Source: Acidicapsa dinghuensis (lineage in GTDB: Bacteria > Acidobacteriota > Terriglobia > Terriglobales > Acidobacteriaceae). Taken from it: a stretch of DNA of 64,000 bases. The translations under genes were made by a program, and so were the position numbers. Below are positions 9,982 through 20,431 of this stretch, one piece after another; position 1 is the stretch's first letter; the number at the start of each line of letters is the position of its first letter. The notes under the pieces were generated by a model. That model was not told where the DNA came from. It did not search any database and saw only the letters and a program-made list of their open reading frames with translations. The stretch lies in the NCBI RefSeq assembly GCF_025685685.1, contig NZ_JAGSYH010000005.1, forward strand, positions 248,001 through 312,000. Direction: 5' to 3'.

Positions 9982-10776
9982 CTATTTTTTCTCCGGCGTC
10001 TGATTGGCGACTTGCAGGTAGTTCTTTACGCTGAACACGCCGGGAACTGCGTTCGCGCGCAGATAAGCGGTGTCCTTGTCAGCCTGCGTATCTACGACTC
10101 CATACAATTCGACGTTGCCATTCTGCACAGAGACACGGATGGGAGCCGCCGGATTGATGGCGTACTTATTCAGGGATGGGAAGCTGTAGATGGCGTGAGC
10201 AACAGCGACCCGGGTCCGCTCATCCATGATGGAAACAGGATCGACCTGGACCTCGTCATTGACATCTTTAACACCTGGATAGGTGGAGACGAGAGCCAAA
10301 GCTGAATCCCTATCAACAGGAGTGTGGGCATGACCACCTAGCGTCACTGCACCGTCATGCACTTGAACAGAAATGGCGTTAAAAGCATTGCCGTATCCAA
10401 CGCGATCATATTGCAGCTTTTCGACGAGTTTTTGCTGCAGTTCCTGATCGGAAACTGAGGCGCCAGCCACCTGTATCTCGTTGCGGACGGCGGAAACACC
10501 TTTTACTTTGTGAGCGATTTTGTCGGCCTGCTCTTTGTATTCATACAGATCAACGGTGCCAGAGAGGGTTGCGACACCGTTATCGACTGTAACTTTTACA
10601 TTTTGGAACTGCTTCTTATTGAGCTTCGCGGTCACTGCCGCAGCCGGGCTCTCGTCTTCCATCGTGGAAGCGGCTCTATTGCCTGAGAGGGCAAAAGAGG
10701 CAAGCGGAAGGCTGAGGAGGGCCCCGACAACGATTCCGGCGAGCGTAGCTTTACTGGAGAAACGAGTGGGAATCAT
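9982..10776 (-). CDS. Exported protein with three BON domains
   Basis: The 264-residue protein has a signal peptide (ATLAGIVVGALLSLPLASFA, about residues 10-29) and three BON modules at about residues 42-105, 110-180 and 188-258. Each has the alpha-beta-beta-alpha-beta pattern with a 'V.DG.VTL.G' strand (VDNGVATLSGTVD, VHDGAVTLGGHAH, VQNGNVELYGVVD). BON domains bind phospholipid or the envelope, as in OsmY and DolP, so this is probably a periplasmic osmotic/envelope stress protein. The ATG at 10776 is chosen because AGGAGG lies just upstream and the signal peptide follows; the frame is open further upstream to 10902. It is monocistronic, with its own terminator. Confidence 0.88.
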   Translation of the reverse strand: MIPTRFSSKATLAGIVVGALLSLPLASFALSGNRAASTMEDESPAAAVTAKLNKKQFQNVKVTVDNGVATLSGTVDLYEYKEQADKIAHKVKGVSAVRNEIQVAGASVSDQELQQKLVEKLQYDRVGYGNAFNAISVQVHDGAVTLGGHAHTPVDRDSALALVSTYPGVKDVNDEVQVDPVSIMDERTRVAVAHAIYSFPSLNKYAINPAAPIRVSVQNGNVELYGVVDTQADKDTAYLRANAVPGVFSVKNYLQVANQTPEKK

Positions 10777-10835
10777 GCTGAAACCTCCTGACTTCTGGAT
10801 CATTAGACTTTGAGTCTTTGAGTGCGGCTGTTGTG

Positions 10836-10861
10836 CACGCATCCTATTGCTAGGATGCGTG
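10836..10861. terminator. Hairpin at the end of the TamB operon / upstream of the BON gene
   Basis: An 11-base perfect inverted repeat (arms 10836-10846 and 10851-10861, 4-base loop TTGC) lies 95 bases beyond the tamB stop codon and 60 bases upstream of the BON start. No T tract follows on the minus strand, so it could act as a Rho-independent-like stop for the Omp85-TamB operon, as an mRNA 3' stabiliser, or as an operator for the BON gene. Confidence 0.45.
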
Positions 10862-10955
10862 TTGCGAGTGCGAGGTTCATTGTCCACAGATATAAACACC
10901 AATTTTCATGGCGTGTTTCGTTCGGATGGAACAGAGCGCAACAGGAGGCTACCGC

Positions 10956-13900
10956 TTACCGATAGCTGCGGCGGGCTTCGATCACCGCGGAAAAGATGCC
11001 CGATTCATCCTGAGTGAGCAACAGGGAGACATGGCGGTTGATGGCTATCTCAGCCTGGATGAGCTGCTGCGTAGTGGTATTGACGTTGCTGGCGTAGGTG
11101 AACGTCAGGTTGTTGCCGATCTGCTCGACGACAGTGACACGGGCGGTGGAGTTGCCCAGAGAGCCGATGAAATTGGGGTCTATTTTGACTGCGCCCGTGC
11201 CGAATAACCGCTGGACACGGTTGGAAACGGTGGCGTTAAGCGCACCGCCGAGCAGGGCGTCGGTCATTGGATTGTCGCCGGCCTGCTGCTGCTGTTGCAC
11301 ATAGGCAGTCTGTTCATTCTGGGTACGACCGAGCGCGAGAAGAGTGAGGATATCGGCCTCGGCCAGAGGAGGTTCGGAGCGATAGGTGAAGCGGGGCTTG
11401 CTGGCGGTTCCATGCAGCCCGAGAGTGATGTCGTAATCCTCAACGCGGGCTGTCGCATCGATATCGATTTCAGGCTGAATGCGGACGGGATTGTTGAAGT
11501 TGATTTCGCCGCGCTGCAGTTCGTAGCGGGTGCCACTGACGGTTGCCGTTCCCTCGGTGAGCGAAATGCGGCCAAGCAGGGATGGGGCTGCGAGGGTGCC
11601 ACGCAGGCGAAGATCGACATCTCCGGCAAGCTTGGCGTAGGCATTCTGGAAGTTGAGCTGCGGGGCAGAGATTACATGTACATCGAGACGCAGATGGTTG
11701 GATGGCGCGTCGGGCGAAACGATAGGCTGCACGCTCACTGGCTGCGAGGCATATACAGAAAGATCGAAGTCGCTATTCACTGCGAAACGCGTGACGAGAA
11801 CATTGCCGCTAAGCAGCAGGTTGTTTTGCGGCCCCTGGAGCTTGAGCGTTGCATCGGCGATAGAGCTGATGCCCTGCGGATAGCGGATGCGGATGGACTT
11901 TCCAGTAACGGTGAGATCGGCGTACAGGCCACGCTGGAAGCCGATGTAACCGCCGACGCTTAACTGACCACCACCGGACATGGCGGTCAGTGAGCGAACC
12001 TGCAGGCGATTCTGAATGAAGTCGAGCGTGCCGTTGATCTGGCTCAGACCGTTGGGGAAATCGTGCAACGCGAGACTTGCATTTTTGAATTCGACCTTGC
12101 CTTGCAGCGTTGGATTCGAAACCGGGCCATGCGCCTCCATCTGAAATGTCGTAGCGCCGCGAGCGGTCAAGTCGGGATCGAGCGTCTCGGCCAGACGCAT
12201 GTTAACAGCACCGTCGGCTCCCAGATCGAGTTGACGTTTGCCGGTAAAGGCCAGCGATCCGTGAAGTCGCAGATCGGTGTCTTCTCCTGTAATTTCAACT
12301 GGGTCGAGACGCGCTATGCCTTCGATCAATGTGGCATGCACCGAGCCTTTGCTGGCTAGATGAACCCCTTCCAGGGAAAACGCGAGCTGATCGAGTTTCG
12401 CTTCACCGCGAATACTTTCGGGGCGGCGGAGCGGGCCTGAGATGGTCGCGACGCCTTCGAGATCGGACTCTCCGCTGATACCGGTTACATGGAGCAGCTT
12501 GAGCATGGCTCCTATGTCGAAATGGGTGAAGCGCACGGTGGCTTGTGTTTTCAGATCCGGATCGAAGCCGGTTTCGCCTTGCGCGCTGAAGTCGCCTGTC
12601 GGCTGATGAGAGCTTAGATCATAAGAGACTGTGCGATTGCGGGTGCTGGCGGTGAGTTGCAGGTCTGCTACCTGCTCGCCGGCGATGACGAGGCTGCCGA
12701 ACGTGGCATGAGCCTGAATACGAGGATCGGACTGCGTGCCGGCCCCATCGACGTTGAACGCGAGCTTGCCGCCGACAGAGAGGCCATTGTCGCGAAGCGC
12801 ATGAATCGCGGCCAGATCGATTCCTGATCCATGCGCATCCAGTTGAAAGCTGTGGCGATCCCAGTTGTAGGTGGCGGTCGCGGTGAGTTTGCCTCCGGTG
12901 CTGCCAGACGATTGTTGGGCGGTTACGGAAGTGAGCTTGAGTGTCTGGCCATTGATTGCACCAACTGCGTGCACATGCTGGACGGACTCACCGTAGAGGC
13001 TTGCTTGGTCAAGATCGACGCTGCCGGCGCCAATGAGATTGTTGAGCTGCCCATCTACATCGACGCGGGAACTAATGATGCCTTTGACCGGTGCATGAAT
13101 GTTGACCAGCGGCAGCAGATCTTCTATTGGAGCCTGTTGAAGTTGTGCCTTAAGGCTAAGGATCGCATGCGCATCGAACTCAGGCTCGCTGAAGCCAATC
13201 TGGTAATCGGGATCTTCGGAGTCGAGATGGCCCTGGAGTGTGATGCTGGCTGCCCCGCGATGAAGCGTACCGTGCCGGATGACAATGCTGGCGGGCGCGT
13301 AGGAGCCTTCCGCATCGAGCGAATCGAGAGGAAAAAAGTAAGGCTCCGCATTGTTAGAGGTGGAAGGTATCTCGATGCCCATGTTATTTGCTGTAAGCCG
13401 ACCATCGATATGCGGAGTAAGCCATGCACTGGAGAATGTGCCGTGAAATTGCGCCTGCCCATGCAATTGAACGGGGAGAGCTTCAGCGCCTTGGCGCGCG
13501 CCGTGATGCAACCCCAGTGTGCGCAGGATAGCGTCGAACTCAGATAGGTTCGCAGAATTGAAGTCGACATGAAGCTGCGATGCACGGGTGATGGGATATA
13601 CGCCGAGCGAGCCCTGCGCCTGAACTGCGCTTTGACGCAGATGCGCATCGAGGGATTTGATTTCTACAGAACCGGTTGCATAGCGGTAGGTACCGTCGAC
13701 TGAACCCTGCACCGGAACTTCATTTGCTATCGGGGTACTGGAGGGCGTGAGAGCCAACTGGCCGCCGATTTCCAGGTCGTCGGCACGGCTTGTCCATCGC
13801 GCGGTCGCGGGACCGGACACTACCGTATTCAGGCCAAGTTTCTGGTACTCGGGAGAAGCCAGCATCACGAGGATCGTGTCGAGTGTGATGCCTTTCAAAT

Positions 13901-15239
13901 TCGCCCTGACAAGACCTGTTGGTACCGGCCAGGTTTTGTGTTCACGCCGCAAAGATGCCTGCACAGCCGGAGCGGGTGTTGAGTCGAGCCAATTATCGAG
14001 GAGCAGTTCACCATCGACTTCTCCACCCCGTTGCAGATGGGTCTGGATGTCAGTGACGTTGAGCTGCTTCTGGTCGGCGTGAAATCTGGCAGAGAAAGCG
14101 GCAGTCTGCGCATCGACGACGGTGTCCTGATAATGGATTGCGTCGGATGCGAGATCGCCTGATGCAGTGAACTGCGAGCCTCGTCCTGAGCCAGTGGCAT
14201 GCAGAGTGACAGCGCCGGTGCGCGCATAAGCAAAAGTGGTGTAGGGCGCGAGAATGCGCAGGTCAATCTGCCCCTGCGCCTGCGCCTGCCAACTGGGACG
14301 GGCAAAGTTGGTGAGGATGCCCCGAAGATTGAGGACCCGATCAAGAGCCGTAAGACGCAGCGAATCTAGCCGGACGCTGTCATGGAAGAGAACGAGCGAC
14401 GCATCAAGACGGCTTGGGGGCGGGTTCTCTTTGGCCTGCGCGAAGGCGAGATCGGCAACGCTGAGGTTGATGCGATAGCTGCCCGGCGGCACGGCTTCTG
14501 ACTTTGCATTGTTGGTAGGCGCCATAGTAGCGCCTGTATCGGGTACCCAATTGAGCTGGAGAGATGTATTGCGAGCGGCGAAGTTGAGTGGTACTTCAAA
14601 GTCAGCAATCTGCGCGAGACCGTTATTGATTTGAAGTTGACCGATCTCTGCGTTGAAGAGATTGTCTATCGCTGAGGTGGACTGCTTGCGCTTTCTTTTT
14701 GGATGAGGCTGATTGGTAGTGCCATCGGCGTAGACGATGAAATGGAATTTCGGACGATCGATCTGCGCGTCGCGGAGAATAACGCGAGGCGAAGGCCCCC
14801 ATTGAAAAAGGCCGAGTATGGCAATGCTGACTTGCAGACGATCGATGTGCGCGTATGGCGCTTCATTGGAAGCTTCGAGGCCGTGGATGGTGATGTTGGT
14901 GGCTTCCGCGTGCAGATGCAGGAGATCCCAATGCAGGGTGGCGATTTCGACGCGGCCTCCTGTAAGGCTCTGCAACTCAACAATGAGGTGTTTACGGACT
15001 GTGTTTTCAAAGCCATCGGAGCTTGCCCATTGATAGCCCGCAATACACGCGCCGACAAGTAGCACAAATAGAACGAGAAGGATATAGCCGCAGATGCGCG
15101 CCCAGCGCGGCACACCGCGATGAAGATCAGGCGGAGGAGGCTCAGATGAAGTGGGACTTGATTCGCCGGTGTTGACGGGCTCAAAAGAAGGGTTCGTGCT
15201 CTCCGGAAGGCCGTCGTTGTTGCGATCCAGACCGCTCAT
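10956..15239 (-). CDS. tamB: TamB/AsmA-like translocation and assembly module protein
   Basis: The 1427-residue protein has a cytosolic Pro-rich prefix, a single inner-membrane anchor (GYILLVLFVLLVGACIAGYQ, residues 51-70) and a very long periplasmic beta-rich body in which strands repeat every 15-20 residues. The C-terminal about 330 residues are the DUF490/TamB domain, including LLGRISLTEGTATVSG, RGEINFNNPVRIQPEIDIDA and ADILTLLALGRT. TamB proteins bridge the inner and outer membranes with a hydrophobic groove, working with an Omp85 partner in outer-membrane protein assembly and in phospholipid transfer. Its length is close to the usual 1250-1500. The ATG overlaps the SurA-N-like stop codon by 4 bases (ATGA). 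An in-frame extension to 15329 is rejected because it would run into that gene. Confidence 0.93.
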   Translation of the reverse strand: MSGLDRNNDGLPESTNPSFEPVNTGESSPTSSEPPPPDLHRGVPRWARICGYILLVLFVLLVGACIAGYQWASSDGFENTVRKHLIVELQSLTGGRVEIATLHWDLLHLHAEATNITIHGLEASNEAPYAHIDRLQVSIAILGLFQWGPSPRVILRDAQIDRPKFHFIVYADGTTNQPHPKRKRKQSTSAIDNLFNAEIGQLQINNGLAQIADFEVPLNFAARNTSLQLNWVPDTGATMAPTNNAKSEAVPPGSYRINLSVADLAFAQAKENPPPSRLDASLVLFHDSVRLDSLRLTALDRVLNLRGILTNFARPSWQAQAQGQIDLRILAPYTTFAYARTGAVTLHATGSGRGSQFTASGDLASDAIHYQDTVVDAQTAAFSARFHADQKQLNVTDIQTHLQRGGEVDGELLLDNWLDSTPAPAVQASLRREHKTWPVPTGLVRANLKGITLDTILVMLASPEYQKLGLNTVVSGPATARWTSRADDLEIGGQLALTPSSTPIANEVPVQGSVDGTYRYATGSVEIKSLDAHLRQSAVQAQGSLGVYPITRASQLHVDFNSANLSEFDAILRTLGLHHGARQGAEALPVQLHGQAQFHGTFSSAWLTPHIDGRLTANNMGIEIPSTSNNAEPYFFPLDSLDAEGSYAPASIVIRHGTLHRGAASITLQGHLDSEDPDYQIGFSEPEFDAHAILSLKAQLQQAPIEDLLPLVNIHAPVKGIISSRVDVDGQLNNLIGAGSVDLDQASLYGESVQHVHAVGAINGQTLKLTSVTAQQSSGSTGGKLTATATYNWDRHSFQLDAHGSGIDLAAIHALRDNGLSVGGKLAFNVDGAGTQSDPRIQAHATFGSLVIAGEQVADLQLTASTRNRTVSYDLSSHQPTGDFSAQGETGFDPDLKTQATVRFTHFDIGAMLKLLHVTGISGESDLEGVATISGPLRRPESIRGEAKLDQLAFSLEGVHLASKGSVHATLIEGIARLDPVEITGEDTDLRLHGSLAFTGKRQLDLGADGAVNMRLAETLDPDLTARGATTFQMEAHGPVSNPTLQGKVEFKNASLALHDFPNGLSQINGTLDFIQNRLQVRSLTAMSGGGQLSVGGYIGFQRGLYADLTVTGKSIRIRYPQGISSIADATLKLQGPQNNLLLSGNVLVTRFAVNSDFDLSVYASQPVSVQPIVSPDAPSNHLRLDVHVISAPQLNFQNAYAKLAGDVDLRLRGTLAAPSLLGRISLTEGTATVSGTRYELQRGEINFNNPVRIQPEIDIDATARVEDYDITLGLHGTASKPRFTYRSEPPLAEADILTLLALGRTQNEQTAYVQQQQQAGDNPMTDALLGGALNATVSNRVQRLFGTGAVKIDPNFIGSLGNSTARVTVVEQIGNNLTFTYASNVNTTTQQLIQAEIAINRHVSLLLTQDESGIFSAVIEARRSYR

Positions 15240-16030
15240 GAACGGCCTCCTTCTTTGGTTGAAGCTTGAGAGCGAAGGGCTGGATCGAGTATCTCTACCT
15301 GACCTTGATCCTGTAGACTCTTGAGCCACTGGGTCAGCAGATCATTGACCTGCTGCTGCAGGAGGATTTCCTGAATGCGTGGGGTGACACGATCAAGCGG
15401 GGGAGCATCTTGCGGATGCGCGTATTGCGGCAGCAGCGTCTGGTTATAGTACTTCTGAATATCGTCCTGAGAGATGCGAATGCCGCTACGGAAGCGAAGC
15501 TCGATGAAGCGGAGGACGGCCATTCGATGCTGCCAGTAGTCTTGGACCTGCTGGGGAGTCAAGCCGAGCGTTGCTAAATACGCGGCCCATCCCTGGGCGC
15601 TGTTGCAATCGCGTATCTTGCATGCGGGCAGCCCCTGACGTAGCTCTGTCAATGCGTCATCCAGCTCTTTTGCCGGAATTTCGAGACCGTGTGGATCTTC
15701 CTGAAGAATCTGCTGCTCGATCAAAACGCGAGTGGTGAGCCTCTCGATCGCTGCCTGCGGGGTATAGTCCTTTTGCGTGCCGGAGGGAAGCAGGTGGACA
15801 ATGCGCATTTCAAGATCGAGATCGCTCGACAGAATCGCCTGGTTATTCACAACGGCGACAACACTATCGAGGAACTGTGCTGACTTGTCATCATGCGGTG
15901 CGTCAGGCTGAGCCGAAGCGTGTGGAGCGCAGGCGAAGATGGCTGCATATGCAGCATAGACAAATAAGACGCGCCGCCCACATGTGAGGATGTGGCTCGC
16001 TATGCTCGATCTCATTTGGTCTATGTGCAT
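15236..16030 (-). CDS. SurA N-terminal-like periplasmic chaperone without PPIase domain
   Basis: The 264-residue protein starts with a signal peptide (about residues 20-41, ending near PHASAQ) and then shows the SurA N-domain start, DSVVAVVNNQAILSSDLDLEM, where the 'vNd..It..dl' pattern is typical. Helices follow that match SurA-N (IERLTTRVLIEQQIL). After about residue 185 there is only a helical region with PRIQEILLQQQVNDLLTQWL, which resembles the C-terminal SurA helix; the parvulin domains found in SurA are absent. Such a protein would be a holdase for outer-membrane protein precursors. It is coupled to both neighbours, by TGATG to the Omp85 gene and by ATGA to tamB, which argues that the three proteins act together. 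Confidence 0.82.
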   Translation of the reverse strand: MHIDQMRSSIASHILTCGRRVLFVYAAYAAIFACAPHASAQPDAPHDDKSAQFLDSVVAVVNNQAILSSDLDLEMRIVHLLPSGTQKDYTPQAAIERLTTRVLIEQQILQEDPHGLEIPAKELDDALTELRQGLPACKIRDCNSAQGWAAYLATLGLTPQQVQDYWQHRMAVLRFIELRFRSGIRISQDDIQKYYNQTLLPQYAHPQDAPPLDRVTPRIQEILLQQQVNDLLTQWLKSLQDQGQVEILDPALRSQASTKEGGRS

Positions 16031-19000
16031 CAGAAGCTCTGCCCCAGACTGAAGAAGAAGTTGAAGTGAGAACCTTCGCCTACGTATGGATTGGTGAGAT
16101 TGGTGTCGGTGACGGTGTCGTAGGTGACGGGATAAATGGGTGGGTTGAGGTTCCAGCTGAAGTCGAGTCGCACCGGACCGACGGGCGTATGATAGCGCGC
16201 GCCCAAACCGACCGCGTGGGAGAAATAGTTGAAACTGCAGCTACCTTCCGTACCTGTCGACGTGACTTTGCCGCTCGGCGGACCAGGCGTGAGGTTACGG
16301 CAACCGGCGCGATCTGGCTGGCGGAAACGGGCGATGCTCGGCCAGATGTCGCCTGAATCGCGGAAGGCGTTGCCCATGTCGTGGAAGAGAACGAAGCTGA
16401 GCGTATTGCCGAAGAGCGGCAACGTTGGTGGAGGCATGCGCAGTTCGGTGGAATTGACGAAAACCCCAGCGCCGCCGATGGGGAAGCCGGATTGCGGATC
16501 GCGAGGACCGGCTGAATTCACGCCGAATCCGCGATGGGAATTGCCACCACCGGCATAGAGACGCTCGGGCAATGGAATCAGTTCGTCTACGGACTGACCA
16601 TACGCTCGCTCCTGTCCATAGCGCGTATTTCGTGCGAGCACAAGACGGTCGTGATCAAAGGTGTAGTAGCTGGAGTTCGACACATCGACCTGATTGAAAT
16701 TGGCTTCGGAGTCGAAGATGGCCGAGGAGATGAACTCCTGAAAGCTGGTGTAGGTGCCGCGATGCGCATCGAGTGGAGCATCGCGTGTGTCACGTATCCA
16801 TGTGAAGCTGGGACCGCCAACGCGTACTGCTTCCGACAGCAGCGGAATTTCATCGAGTGGCACCTGAATACTATTCTGATCAACCTTCACACGGCGATAG
16901 ATGAACTGGTAGATGAAGGTGTTGGCTTTACTGAAGAGCTGCTCGGGGCCGTTGAAGTGCTCAGTGAGGCGCAGACTGCCTTCGAGCTTGGAGGCGCTGT
17001 AGGTGATGACATCCTGGCTGTTGTTGTAGCCACCATTGAAACTGAAGCTGAAGTTGCGATTGCCGAACAGATGCGGATATTGATAGACCAGGTCAACACG
17101 TTGTTCGAGCAGGCCGTAGTTGCCGCGGATCGACGCGGTCTGATCACGGCCGAAAAGATTGATGCGGCTTACCTGAAGCAGAACACGTGGGCTGATGCCG
17201 ACGGTTCCATTGGGATTGCTGTTATTCGATCCATTGACCGTACCGGTTTGCGCTTCCAAGCCCACGCCATAAGCGATATCCCAACGGCGGGCTTCCGTGG
17301 TCTGCAACAGCACCGTCTTGCGCGGCTCTTCCCCGTTGGGATTTTCAATAACTGGATTGACCTCATTGAACAGGGCCAGATCGTACAGATTGCGCTGCGT
17401 ATCGACGAGGGCGGTTTCATCGAGCGGCTCGCCTTCTTTGAGAGTGATGGCGCGAGCGATCGTTTTGGGATGCGTATAGTGCAGACCTGTTGTTATGACC
17501 CGCCTAAGGAAGACCTGTTCGCCCTCGTGGATACGAAAGGTCACATCGACGGCACCTGGAGCGGTATGCGTTTCATCGGGGTGCGGCGTGTCTGTTGAAG
17601 CATGCGGAACCGCCTGACTTACTTCTACGTCCGCCTGCTCGAAGCCACGGCTCAGGTAGTAAGTGAGGAGCGCCTCGCGGTCGCCGGCGAGGTTTTGCGG
17701 CGAAAGCGGTTGGCCTGCCGCGGTGTTCAGCAGGGGAATCAACAGGTCCTGCGCAATACGCTGCGTGCCGACGAGTGTGACGGAGTGAACGCGCTCCTGG
17801 GGTCCTTCATCGATGTGATAGACGACTGAAAATCCAACCTGTTTGGTTCGTTTTGGGCTTTGACCGTTGTTGTCTTCGTCCTGAATCTCCTGCGTGACCT
17901 TGACCTGCGTAAAGCCGTTGTTCTGATAAACGGCCTGTATAGCGCTTATATCCTGTGCAATCAGCGCCTGGTTGTAGACACCCTGGCGGCTGAATGCGTC
18001 GTGAGCGCGAACACTCAGGCGCTCCTCAAGAGTGCCTCGATCAAAGTACTTATTTCCATCGACGGAAACTTTAATGACACGATGGCGTGCTCCGAGATGG
18101 ACGGTAAAGAGGATCTCGACGAGATCCGGCGAAGGATTTTTTTCTTCGTGGCGAACGCGCGCATCGAAATAGCCGAGGCGCTGGTAATAGTTCTGGAGAT
18201 GCTGGTTGCCTTCATTGAGAAGATCTTCATCGACGCTGCCTTCTTCATAGATGGGAACGAGCTTTCGGACTTTTTCATCGCTGAGGCTTACGCCGTCGAC
18301 AATGACATGGACAATAGGACCGCGATTGGCGGAGAAGTTGAAGTCGACATCGTTCTTAGCTGAAACGTAGTTTTGCGATTCCAGCTTGACGTCAGCCTCA
18401 AGCCGTTGGTTTTTGCGGTAATACTTTTGCATTCCGCCCAATGCGCGGCTTGATGTATCCCGATCGACGGTATGGCCTGCGCGTAACCTCGCCTGACGGC
18501 GAAATTCATCCAGGGTCAGTCCGCTGTCTCCCTGAACGGACACATCGCCGGTGCGGGCCTGTGCGCGGGAATTGACGGTAAAGGCGATATCGACCAGTTG
18601 CTCTGCTGGATGCGGGGTTAAAGTGTGCGTGATTGTGGCCTGGTACCAGCCGTTAGCGGCAAGAGTTTTCTTCATCTCCTCTTCTGCCTGTACCAAGCCT
18701 GCGTCCGTGAAGCGATTACCGGGGGTCAGACCGCTGGCGCGTGCAAGCAAAGAGTTGATGTTGGCTCCCTTTGCTCCAATGACGGAGACGAGTCCGATGA
18801 ATGTCCTTGGCTGGCCGCTGAAAATGAGGATCACGCCTCCGGCTTCCCTGCGGCTTTCGACGGCAATGGTGTCGTAGACGCCTGTCGCGTAGAGGCGGCG
18901 CAGACTGTCTCGCACGGCGGTCGGATTGAGAGGCTTGCCAGACTGTTGAGCTAACTCAATGGGTAGGGGCTCAAGGCGAGCACGGCGCACACCTTCGAAT

Positions 19001-19485
19001 TCGATGCGCAGGACAGTCTTTCCTTGCAAGGCGTCGAGCCTGTCAGGAGGCTCCGCAACGCGAGGCGAAGAAGCGTTCAACTGTGTGGAGGTTTGCTCGG
19101 TGTCTGCAGCTTTTCTGCGTACTTCTGCGGCATCGGTTTGCGCAATTTGTTGAGCTGTCTGCGGCTGAGCCACCAAGCGAGATGGATAACCGCACCACAG
19201 AAAAGTCACCGAGGCCAAAGACAGCCATTTCAGGAGCTTTCCAGATTGCGGTAGCTTTGCGGGGAGTTGCGCTCGTTTTTCCTCGCGTTCAAGGAGAGTG
19301 CGCCGCTGGTCAGGGCAGATCAAGCGGCGATATCGAGCTGCAATAGAAATCAAAGCGTAGTCCGTTCGATGGCAGGAATGCTGAATCGAACCGCGGAATT
19401 GATGGTACTTCCACGGAACAACCATTCGCAGTCCGACGCCTGGAGTGTTTCTTTCGGGACTATTCGCAGTCCGATTCCCCTGCAT
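16030..19485 (-). CDS. Omp85/BamA-family outer-membrane assembly protein with about seven POTRA domains
   Basis: The frame encodes up to 1151 residues. Counting from 19485, a signal-like segment sits at about 84-107 and seven POTRA-like repeats follow at about 157-222, 228-305, 311-385, 389-465, 469-560, 566-655 and 659-732. Each opens with a 'v..V.v.G' strand (for example VIKVSVDGNKYFD and RVHSVTLVGTQRI) and ends in a 'v.i.f.v..G' strand. The beta-barrel occupies about 735-1151 and ends in Phe (FFFSLGQSF), the usual C-terminal insertion signal. BamA has five POTRAs and TamA three. The ATG at 19485 leaves about 80 residues before the signal peptide, so the true start is probably further in (possibly CTG near 19233), but it is not settled. 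First gene of the operon with the SurA-N-like gene and tamB. Confidence 0.9.
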   Translation of the reverse strand: MQGNRTANSPERNTPGVGLRMVVPWKYHQFRGSIQHSCHRTDYALISIAARYRRLICPDQRRTLLEREEKRAQLPAKLPQSGKLLKWLSLASVTFLWCGYPSRLVAQPQTAQQIAQTDAAEVRRKAADTEQTSTQLNASSPRVAEPPDRLDALQGKTVLRIEFEGVRRARLEPLPIELAQQSGKPLNPTAVRDSLRRLYATGVYDTIAVESRREAGGVILIFSGQPRTFIGLVSVIGAKGANINSLLARASGLTPGNRFTDAGLVQAEEEMKKTLAANGWYQATITHTLTPHPAEQLVDIAFTVNSRAQARTGDVSVQGDSGLTLDEFRRQARLRAGHTVDRDTSSRALGGMQKYYRKNQRLEADVKLESQNYVSAKNDVDFNFSANRGPIVHVIVDGVSLSDEKVRKLVPIYEEGSVDEDLLNEGNQHLQNYYQRLGYFDARVRHEEKNPSPDLVEILFTVHLGARHRVIKVSVDGNKYFDRGTLEERLSVRAHDAFSRQGVYNQALIAQDISAIQAVYQNNGFTQVKVTQEIQDEDNNGQSPKRTKQVGFSVVYHIDEGPQERVHSVTLVGTQRIAQDLLIPLLNTAAGQPLSPQNLAGDREALLTYYLSRGFEQADVEVSQAVPHASTDTPHPDETHTAPGAVDVTFRIHEGEQVFLRRVITTGLHYTHPKTIARAITLKEGEPLDETALVDTQRNLYDLALFNEVNPVIENPNGEEPRKTVLLQTTEARRWDIAYGVGLEAQTGTVNGSNNSNPNGTVGISPRVLLQVSRINLFGRDQTASIRGNYGLLEQRVDLVYQYPHLFGNRNFSFSFNGGYNNSQDVITYSASKLEGSLRLTEHFNGPEQLFSKANTFIYQFIYRRVKVDQNSIQVPLDEIPLLSEAVRVGGPSFTWIRDTRDAPLDAHRGTYTSFQEFISSAIFDSEANFNQVDVSNSSYYTFDHDRLVLARNTRYGQERAYGQSVDELIPLPERLYAGGGNSHRGFGVNSAGPRDPQSGFPIGGAGVFVNSTELRMPPPTLPLFGNTLSFVLFHDMGNAFRDSGDIWPSIARFRQPDRAGCRNLTPGPPSGKVTSTGTEGSCSFNYFSHAVGLGARYHTPVGPVRLDFSWNLNPPIYPVTYDTVTDTNLTNPYVGEGSHFNFFFSLGQSF

Positions 19486-19708: not shown

Positions 19709-20431
19709 ATGGGCTCAGTCAATTCCCCGAGTTACGCGAACGGCGACGCGGTGGAAAATAAAGACCGCGTAAATCCGCAAAGCAGGGTGGCTGGCGCCGC
19801 CAGTGGCCCTCCGTCGCAGGCAAAATCTGGCGCCAGTGACACTGCGGCATCTCAGCAGCCGGAGAACGATGCGCAAATCCTGGAACGAGCGCAGGCCGGT
19901 GATCACAATGCGTTTGCCCAACTTTATGCCCTGCATAAACGCCGGGTGTACTCCCTTTGTCTTCGCATGCTGGGTAACGTGGCCGAAGCCGAGGATCTAA
20001 CCCAGGAATCATTTCTGCAGCTTCACCGCAAAATTGCGACCTTCCGGGGGGATTCGGCGTTTTCTACCTGGTTGCACCGACTGACAGTCAACGTTGTACT
20101 GATGCATCTTCGCCGTAAAGGCTTGAATCTAATCTCTCTTGATGAGGCACTCGACCCCAGTCCCGAGCGTGGACCGGCGCGAAGCTTTGGCGCGCCCGAT
20201 ATGCACCTGTCTGGATCGATTGACCGCATGACTCTGGAAAAAGCGATCGAAAGCCTTCCGGCAGGTTACAGGCTGATTTTCGTGCTGCATGATATTGAGG
20301 GTTATGAACACAACGAGATCGCGACTCTGCTCGACTGCTCCATTGGCAATTCAAAATCACAACTGCACAAAGCCAGAATGAAGCTGCGGGAGGCGCTGCG
20401 CGCGCCTGCCGACGAGGAGGTGGCCAGGTAA
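19709..20431 (+). CDS. ECF (sigma-70 family) RNA polymerase sigma factor
   Basis: The 240-residue protein has a disordered Ser/Gln/Ala-rich N-terminus of about 55 residues, then sigma region 2 at about 65-140 (AFAQLYALHKRRVYSLCLRML, the AEDLTQESFLQLHRKI core and FSTWLHRLTVN) and region 4 at about 172-232 (LEKAIESLPAGYRLIFVLHDIEGY, EIATLLDCSIGNSKSQLHKAR). There is no region 1.1 or 3, which makes it an ECF (group 4) sigma factor of the RpoE/SigW type. The stop overlaps the next ATG (TAATG), so it is co-translated with the zinc anti-sigma factor that follows. It is divergent from the outer-membrane assembly operon. Confidence 0.92.
   Translation: MGSVNSPSYANGDAVENKDRVNPQSRVAGAASGPPSQAKSGASDTAASQQPENDAQILERAQAGDHNAFAQLYALHKRRVYSLCLRMLGNVAEAEDLTQESFLQLHRKIATFRGDSAFSTWLHRLTVNVVLMHLRRKGLNLISLDEALDPSPERGPARSFGAPDMHLSGSIDRMTLEKAIESLPAGYRLIFVLHDIEGYEHNEIATLLDCSIGNSKSQLHKARMKLREALRAPADEEVAR

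Follow-up and report, generated by a model that had tools for sequence, protein, structure and literature searches.

A tight omp85-surN-tamB operon in Acidobacteriota suggests a second membrane-assembly machine with its own dedicated delivery chaperone

Three overlapping genes on the minus strand of a 64,000-nucleotide stretch of Acidicapsa dinghuensis DNA (NCBI RefSeq assembly GCF_025685685.1, contig NZ_JAGSYH010000005.1, positions 248,001 to 312,000; hereafter, the window) raise the question of whether an outer-membrane insertase, a periplasmic chaperone and TamB are encoded as one machine. The original prediction, made from the letters alone, read positions 10956-19485 as Omp85, SurA-N-like and TamB genes in one translationally coupled operon. 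It asked whether the Omp85 is a BamA paralogue or the TAM of acidobacteria. Here, we name the SurA-like gene, which encodes 264 amino acids, surN. The features discussed below are as follows, in window coordinates.

omp85, 16030..19485, minus strand: TAM-type BamA paralogue with seven POTRA domains and a 16-strand barrel; start codon uncertain.
surN, 15236..16030, minus strand: core-only relative of SurA, with a signal peptide, an N-domain and a C-terminal helix and strand, without parvulin.
tamB, 10956..15239, minus strand: 1427 amino acids from the ATG at 15239; membrane helix, AsmA-like repeats and C-terminal TamB/DUF490 domain.
omp85-surN junction TGATG, 16028..16032, minus strand: the last base of the omp85 stop TGA (16032-16030) is also the A of the surN ATG (16030-16028).
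surN-tamB junction ATGA, 15236..15239, minus strand: the surN stop TGA (15238-15236) overlaps the tamB ATG (15239-15237).
QFLDSV, 15860..15877, minus strand: surN residues 52-57, profile-aligned with residues 23-28 of E. coli SurA (QVVDKV).

The three predicted identities hold by Pfam. The omp85 product (P0001) has seven POTRA stretches followed by the Omp85 barrel; the surN product (P0002) has SurA_N as its sole meaningful match, at 27.9 bits and thus below the cut-off of 30.8; and the tamB product (P0003) matches TamB/DUF490 at 136.5 bits against a cut-off of 22.4. The translation of P0003 begins with a hydrophobic helix, a membrane anchor, so that the protein combines the N-terminal anchor and the C-terminal domain of TamB, while its score for the proteobacterial ATportTamB equivalog (54 bits) lies under that model's cut-off of 825. 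The tamB start is the ATG at 15239, not the upstream GTG of the mechanical open reading frame. The true start of omp85 is uncertain, since the first ~75 residues of the frame that opens at 19485 are unconserved and relatives offer differing starts; the conserved part of P0001 begins near residue 153.

Both gene overlaps that had been read from the letters are present, and their conservation was examined in an independent named collection of 76 surN loci. The omp85-surN junction is a -1 overlap with ATG in 62 of 74 named loci, and the surN-tamB junction a -4 overlap (ATG, GTG or TTG) in 71 of 74; as the rows are related, these counts are not independent events. Both overlaps are more than chance, and they suggest translational coupling. 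No excess of promoter-like sites was found between omp85, surN and tamB. An ECF-type GGAAC promoter 5' of the operon was considered and dropped, being unconserved in relatives.

Two neighbouring genes deserve mention. An ECF sigma factor gene (19709-20431, plus strand) is the divergent neighbour of the operon. Such a gene lies upstream of omp85 in 35 loci of the class, divergent every time, at ~2 kb or less from omp85 in the genus and its near relatives and at 2.5-6 kb in the others. A search for a shared promoter motif found none; the sigma factor may be a regulator of envelope assembly. On the same strand as the operon, ~180 bases past tamB, lies a gene for a protein with three BON domains (9982-10902); among 115 class loci, 20 have a homologue close to the operon. 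BON domains also occur in OsmY, which is likewise a periplasmic chaperone.

Which kind of Omp85 does the operon encode? In the NCBIfam models, P0001 narrowly passes the cut-off for BamA (314 vs. 297 bits) and reaches 60.7 bits for TamA, whose cut-off is 625. This score, together with seven POTRA domains instead of three, rules out proteobacterial TamA proper. The AlphaFold model of P0001 (mean pLDDT 69; about 80-90 across most POTRAs) contains seven beta-alpha-alpha-beta-beta units at residues 157-731, and then 16 barrel strands. An inventory of the genome, which the original prediction had called for, counted three genes for Omp85 and two for TamB. The Omp85 on contig C10 has five POTRAs and, at 458 bits, the top BamA score, and two tandem OmpH/Skp-like genes come after it (locus L005:6633-11691, minus strand); on these grounds it is the canonical bamA. 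Since canonical bamA thus stands elsewhere in the genome, with two skp genes, P0001 is not the main BamA, and in an Omp85 tree built on the C-terminal, mainly barrel part the two proteins are far apart. P0001 is additional to canonical BamA, carries seven POTRAs and adjoins tamB, as acidobacterial TAM-type Omp85 proteins do. It is thus the duplicated, TAM-type BamA known from Acidobacteria; the choice between a BamA paralogue and the TAM is settled as a TAM-type BamA paralogue. With the OmpH/Skp-like genes beside bamA, the cell's two Omp85 systems have different neighbouring chaperones.

The third Omp85 gene, on contig C12, belongs to a second omp85-tamB pair (L004:5180-12392, minus strand) that has no chaperone gene: its omp85 and tamB are separated by a 28-base gap, with no gene in between. 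In the Omp85 tree, the surN-less copies of 13 Terriglobales loci form one clade (support 100), which adjoins the surN-bearing copies of the class and lies well apart from BamA. The pair is apparently a later duplicate that arose in Terriglobales and lacks surN. Within the same genome, it could serve as a natural control for what surN does. Both P0001 and this paralogue score above the NCBIfam BamA cut-off; hence, automatic annotation is expected to report three "BamA" genes in this genome.

What, then, is surN? A profile of 30 surN members matches E. coli SurA across the N-domain (construct residues 41-181, E 1.7e-14) and again at residues 421-449, the last 29, where the match is weak (5.5 bits) but colinear. 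Nothing in this alignment corresponds to the part of SurA that contains the two parvulin domains. Among the 30 members scanned, SurA_N_3 is matched by 19, SurA_N by 11 (counted at E 0.001) and SurA_N_2 by four, and parvulin (Rotamase) by none. In the PDB, the AlphaFold model of the protein (pLDDT 81, above 90 for most of the core) is matched best by SurA chains from BAM-SurA complexes, with TM scores, normalized by target length, of 0.74 for 8pzv, 0.73 for 8pz2, 0.72 for 9hg9 and 0.62 for 8qpv. The model includes a helix (212-242) and a strand (245-247) as the C-terminal elements that complete the core, and the predicted fold is that of the BAM-bound SurA core. A hidden parvulin domain is excluded by the scan of the family and by the predicted model, which is all core. 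SurN therefore has the SurA N-domain and the C-terminal helix and strand, and we file it as a core-only relative of SurA, not as SurA, because all 30 members are free of a Rotamase match. The claim of a PPIase-free SurA-type protein encoded with a TAM-type pair was thus borne out, surN adjoining both omp85 and tamB.

Sites known from E. coli SurA can be located in SurN. In the segment aligned with SurA residues 23-28, Asp55 is nearly invariant across the family. The client-site residues remain hydrophobic in P0002 (I91 to I118, M114 to W148, I132 to W166 and M136 to M170), four of the five reported core hot spots as mapped by hand from the profile alignment. Codon comparisons within the genus gave a dN of 0.25-0.55 and a dS of 1.5 or more; surN is under purifying selection. 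Family conservation, the kept overlaps and a dN far below dS exclude a pseudogene or a chance open reading frame. The genome also encodes two SurA-like proteins with a parvulin domain, and surN is monophyletic with respect to parvulin-bearing SurA (support 98). The protein further carries two cysteines five residues apart, Cys137 and Cys142 (window 15605-15622, minus strand), in an insertion common to the genus and its nearest relatives and absent from the rest of the family; they possibly form a disulfide.

If the three genes form a unit, then their association should extend beyond this genome. A single-sequence search recovered surN in 50 of 61 relatives, and a profile search added G042, G043 and G048, in which surN lies beside an Omp85 gene; their apparent lack of surN was an effect of search sensitivity. 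Eight relatives are without surN. Four of them are drafts with a completeness of 88% or less; the other four are near-complete, of which G037 has only a surN-less omp85-tamB pair, and G055, G057 and G058 have neither surN nor any TamB. Thus, the presence of surN follows the tamB of the surN-type operon. The class loci examined have the order omp85-surN-tamB. In the named collection, whose loci were chosen by the surN match alone, with neighbours unused in the selection, nearly all of the 76 loci are from Acidobacteriota, and all 73 that retain both flanks have the order omp85-surN-tamB. A scan of the collection with a tighter surN alignment returned almost only Acidobacteriota. One outlier, from Goldiibacteriota (L199), is a protein of 492 amino acids without such neighbours.

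In other families of Acidobacteriota, the arrangement varies. Among 40 such loci, selected solely by their surN match, tamB-omp85-surN was found in 25, omp85-surN-tamB in two and omp85-surN at a contig end in two, while 10 were unlinked and one was cut by the contig end; in one of the tamB-omp85-surN type (L114), ~4 kb separate omp85 from surN. SurN thus keeps with omp85 while tamB sits on either side, and gene order tracks the surN tree. With about three Omp85 genes per genome, the adjacency of surN and omp85 in 28 of 40 loci is not chance, and since the predominant order differs from omp85-surN-tamB, the linkage has survived rearrangement. The genomes with unlinked surN still have TamB elsewhere, so the partnership is not obligatory. 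The original prediction of a conserved unit therefore stands far beyond this genome, in all 73 named loci, and fails in 10 of the 40 loci sampled in other families; separation of the genes in relatives, which it had named as evidence against a unit, does occur to that extent, and the same genome holds an omp85-tamB pair without surN. The unlinked core-only genes are those of L091, L092, L096, L099, L103, L105, L106, L107, L111 and L117. Five unlinked genes have near-basal positions in the surN tree, and those of L105 and L106 directly follow an apparent murA gene.

Taken together, the tight operon suggests a second membrane-assembly machine with its own dedicated delivery chaperone. We narrowly favour the view that the operon encodes a three-component TAM, in which a parvulin-free SurA core, SurN, would be the dedicated chaperone, docking on the distal POTRA of the Omp85 and handing over clients. 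The BamA-derived Omp85 with its seven POTRAs would sit in the outer membrane, TamB would bridge the periplasm from the inner membrane, and SurN would serve this machine as a periplasmic SurA core. In E. coli, the SurA core is the part that binds POTRA-1/2; residues 23-28 dock on POTRA-1 of BamA by beta-augmentation, with the client in the core site (PMC11366764), and the core is auto-inhibited or restrained by the parvulin domain P1 (PMC11401910). On this model, the SurN strand just before the VAVVN motif would pair with the neighbouring gene's Omp85, at the edge of its distal POTRA. The crevice of the N-domain, constitutively open without P1, would hold an unfolded beta-barrel client and pass it to the Omp85/TamB seam, and the gene overlaps would hold the parts in fixed proportion. 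Docking, handover, translational coupling and a division of labour with BamA are what we infer here. In favour of the three-component TAM are the profile and fold match to the SurA core, the linkage kept with and without rearrangement, selection, and a presence that follows tamB. Against it are the 10 of 40 unlinked loci, despite TamB elsewhere in these genomes, and the Terriglobales duplicate pair without surN. Two further points weigh against it: E. coli SurA left TAM-driven assembly unchanged in vitro (PMC11341756), which calls for caution regarding chaperoning of TAM by SurN, and lipid transport may be the main task of TamB (PMC12800296). A bolder reading, which we hold as tentative and somewhat doubtful, is that the acidobacteriotal TAM was ancestrally three-subunit, with a SurN that never had or has lost parvulins and docks on the distal POTRA. 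The view that SurA almost always needs a PPIase domain would then be partly an artefact of the counting profile, and Skp for BamA and SurN for TAM would split two insertion routes in one cell.

Could SurN serve the machine without delivering clients to it? It might be an assembly factor that keeps its own partners soluble until they are joined, namely the newly secreted Omp85 with its seven POTRAs and TamB with its long beta-helix. Where all three genes are linked, surN nearly always directly follows omp85, and TamB has a large hydrophobic groove, which would call for a holdase. However, the duplicate omp85-tamB pair is conserved in 13 Terriglobales loci without surN, and canonical SurA serves clients; we regard an assembly factor as unlikely. 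The conserved position of the POTRA-pairing strand and the seven POTRAs of the Omp85 would also suit a structural adaptor that bridges the extra POTRAs to TamB and holds no client, but the SurA client-binding positions are still hydrophobic in P0002 (I118, W148, W166 and M170), and this makes such a role very unlikely.

Other readings place SurN outside the machine. It might be a general periplasmic holdase of the whole cell, merely housed in the operon; in favour are the unlinked copies in 10 of 40 loci and the general chaperone role of the SurA core in E. coli (PMC11401910). Yet surN is absent from near-complete genomes that lack the surN-type tamB, the linkage is kept through changes of gene order, and the genome already has two parvulin-bearing SurA-like proteins and two skp genes beside bamA, so that we consider general service quite improbable. 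That SurN is a mere relic, left over when a SurA shed its enzyme domains, is hardly credible: it is short and scores under the Pfam SurA_N cut-off, but purifying selection, phylum-wide conservation, an intact signal peptide, N-domain and C-terminus, and its monophyly against parvulin-bearing SurA all oppose decay.

The three-component TAM can be set beside known systems. In Acidobacteria, Heinz et al. 2015 described an additional BamA with seven POTRAs that shares an operon with TamB, and proposed it as the origin of TAM (PMC4494059); the omp85 and tamB of the window are this same system. The words "SurA", "isomerase" and "chaperone" occur zero times in the main text of that paper, and the present genome has two such pairs, one of them without surN. 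The omp85-tamB linkage in Acidobacteria is therefore already published, and surN appears to be the new part. A search of open-access papers found no TAM operon that includes a naturally core-only SurA. That a TAM partner and a chaperone can share one cluster is known from the synteny of TamB, BamA and Skp in diderm Firmicutes and Spirochaetes (PMC5007114). In both cases, a periplasmic chaperone is encoded together with Omp85 and TamB; there, however, Skp fills this role, and the Firmicutes have no BamA other than this Omp85, whereas here a SurA core takes its place, and Skp stays with bamA elsewhere in the genome. As in E. coli TamA-TamB, an Omp85 is paired with TamB in one locus, but P0001 has seven POTRAs instead of three and a TamA score of 61 against 625 bits, and a third gene is added. 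Models of client delivery to TAM are undecided between transfer from a chaperone to TamB and transfer straight to a TamA POTRA (PMC11341756); such delivery can be tested directly in the natural system described here, a conserved TAM operon that brings its own minimal SurA.

SurN shares with E. coli SurA, and with its engineered parvulin-less N+C form, the N-domain, the C-terminal segment, the signal peptide and the position of the POTRA-pairing strand. It differs from E. coli SurA in being naturally without both parvulins and in being encoded with omp85-tamB, not separately. Parvulin-less SurA functions in vivo, as the work of Behrens 2001 is cited in PMC11401910 and PMC2556385. A 2024 survey counted core-only SurA in 73 of 14,244 homologues of the SurA_N family (0.5%), mostly from Halomonas, and pictured it as largely from extreme environments (PMC11401910). 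That the survey missed the surN family may be explained by the score of P0002, which lies below the Pfam SurA_N cut-off. SurN is likewise a SurA core without parvulin; unlike these scattered cases, its family is phylum-wide and tied to TAM, and only 11 of the 30 members scanned match SurA_N. Contrary to the picture of a rare form of extreme environments, it is a large core-only set in ordinary soil bacteria, and as such it bears on the purpose of the parvulin domains in SurA.
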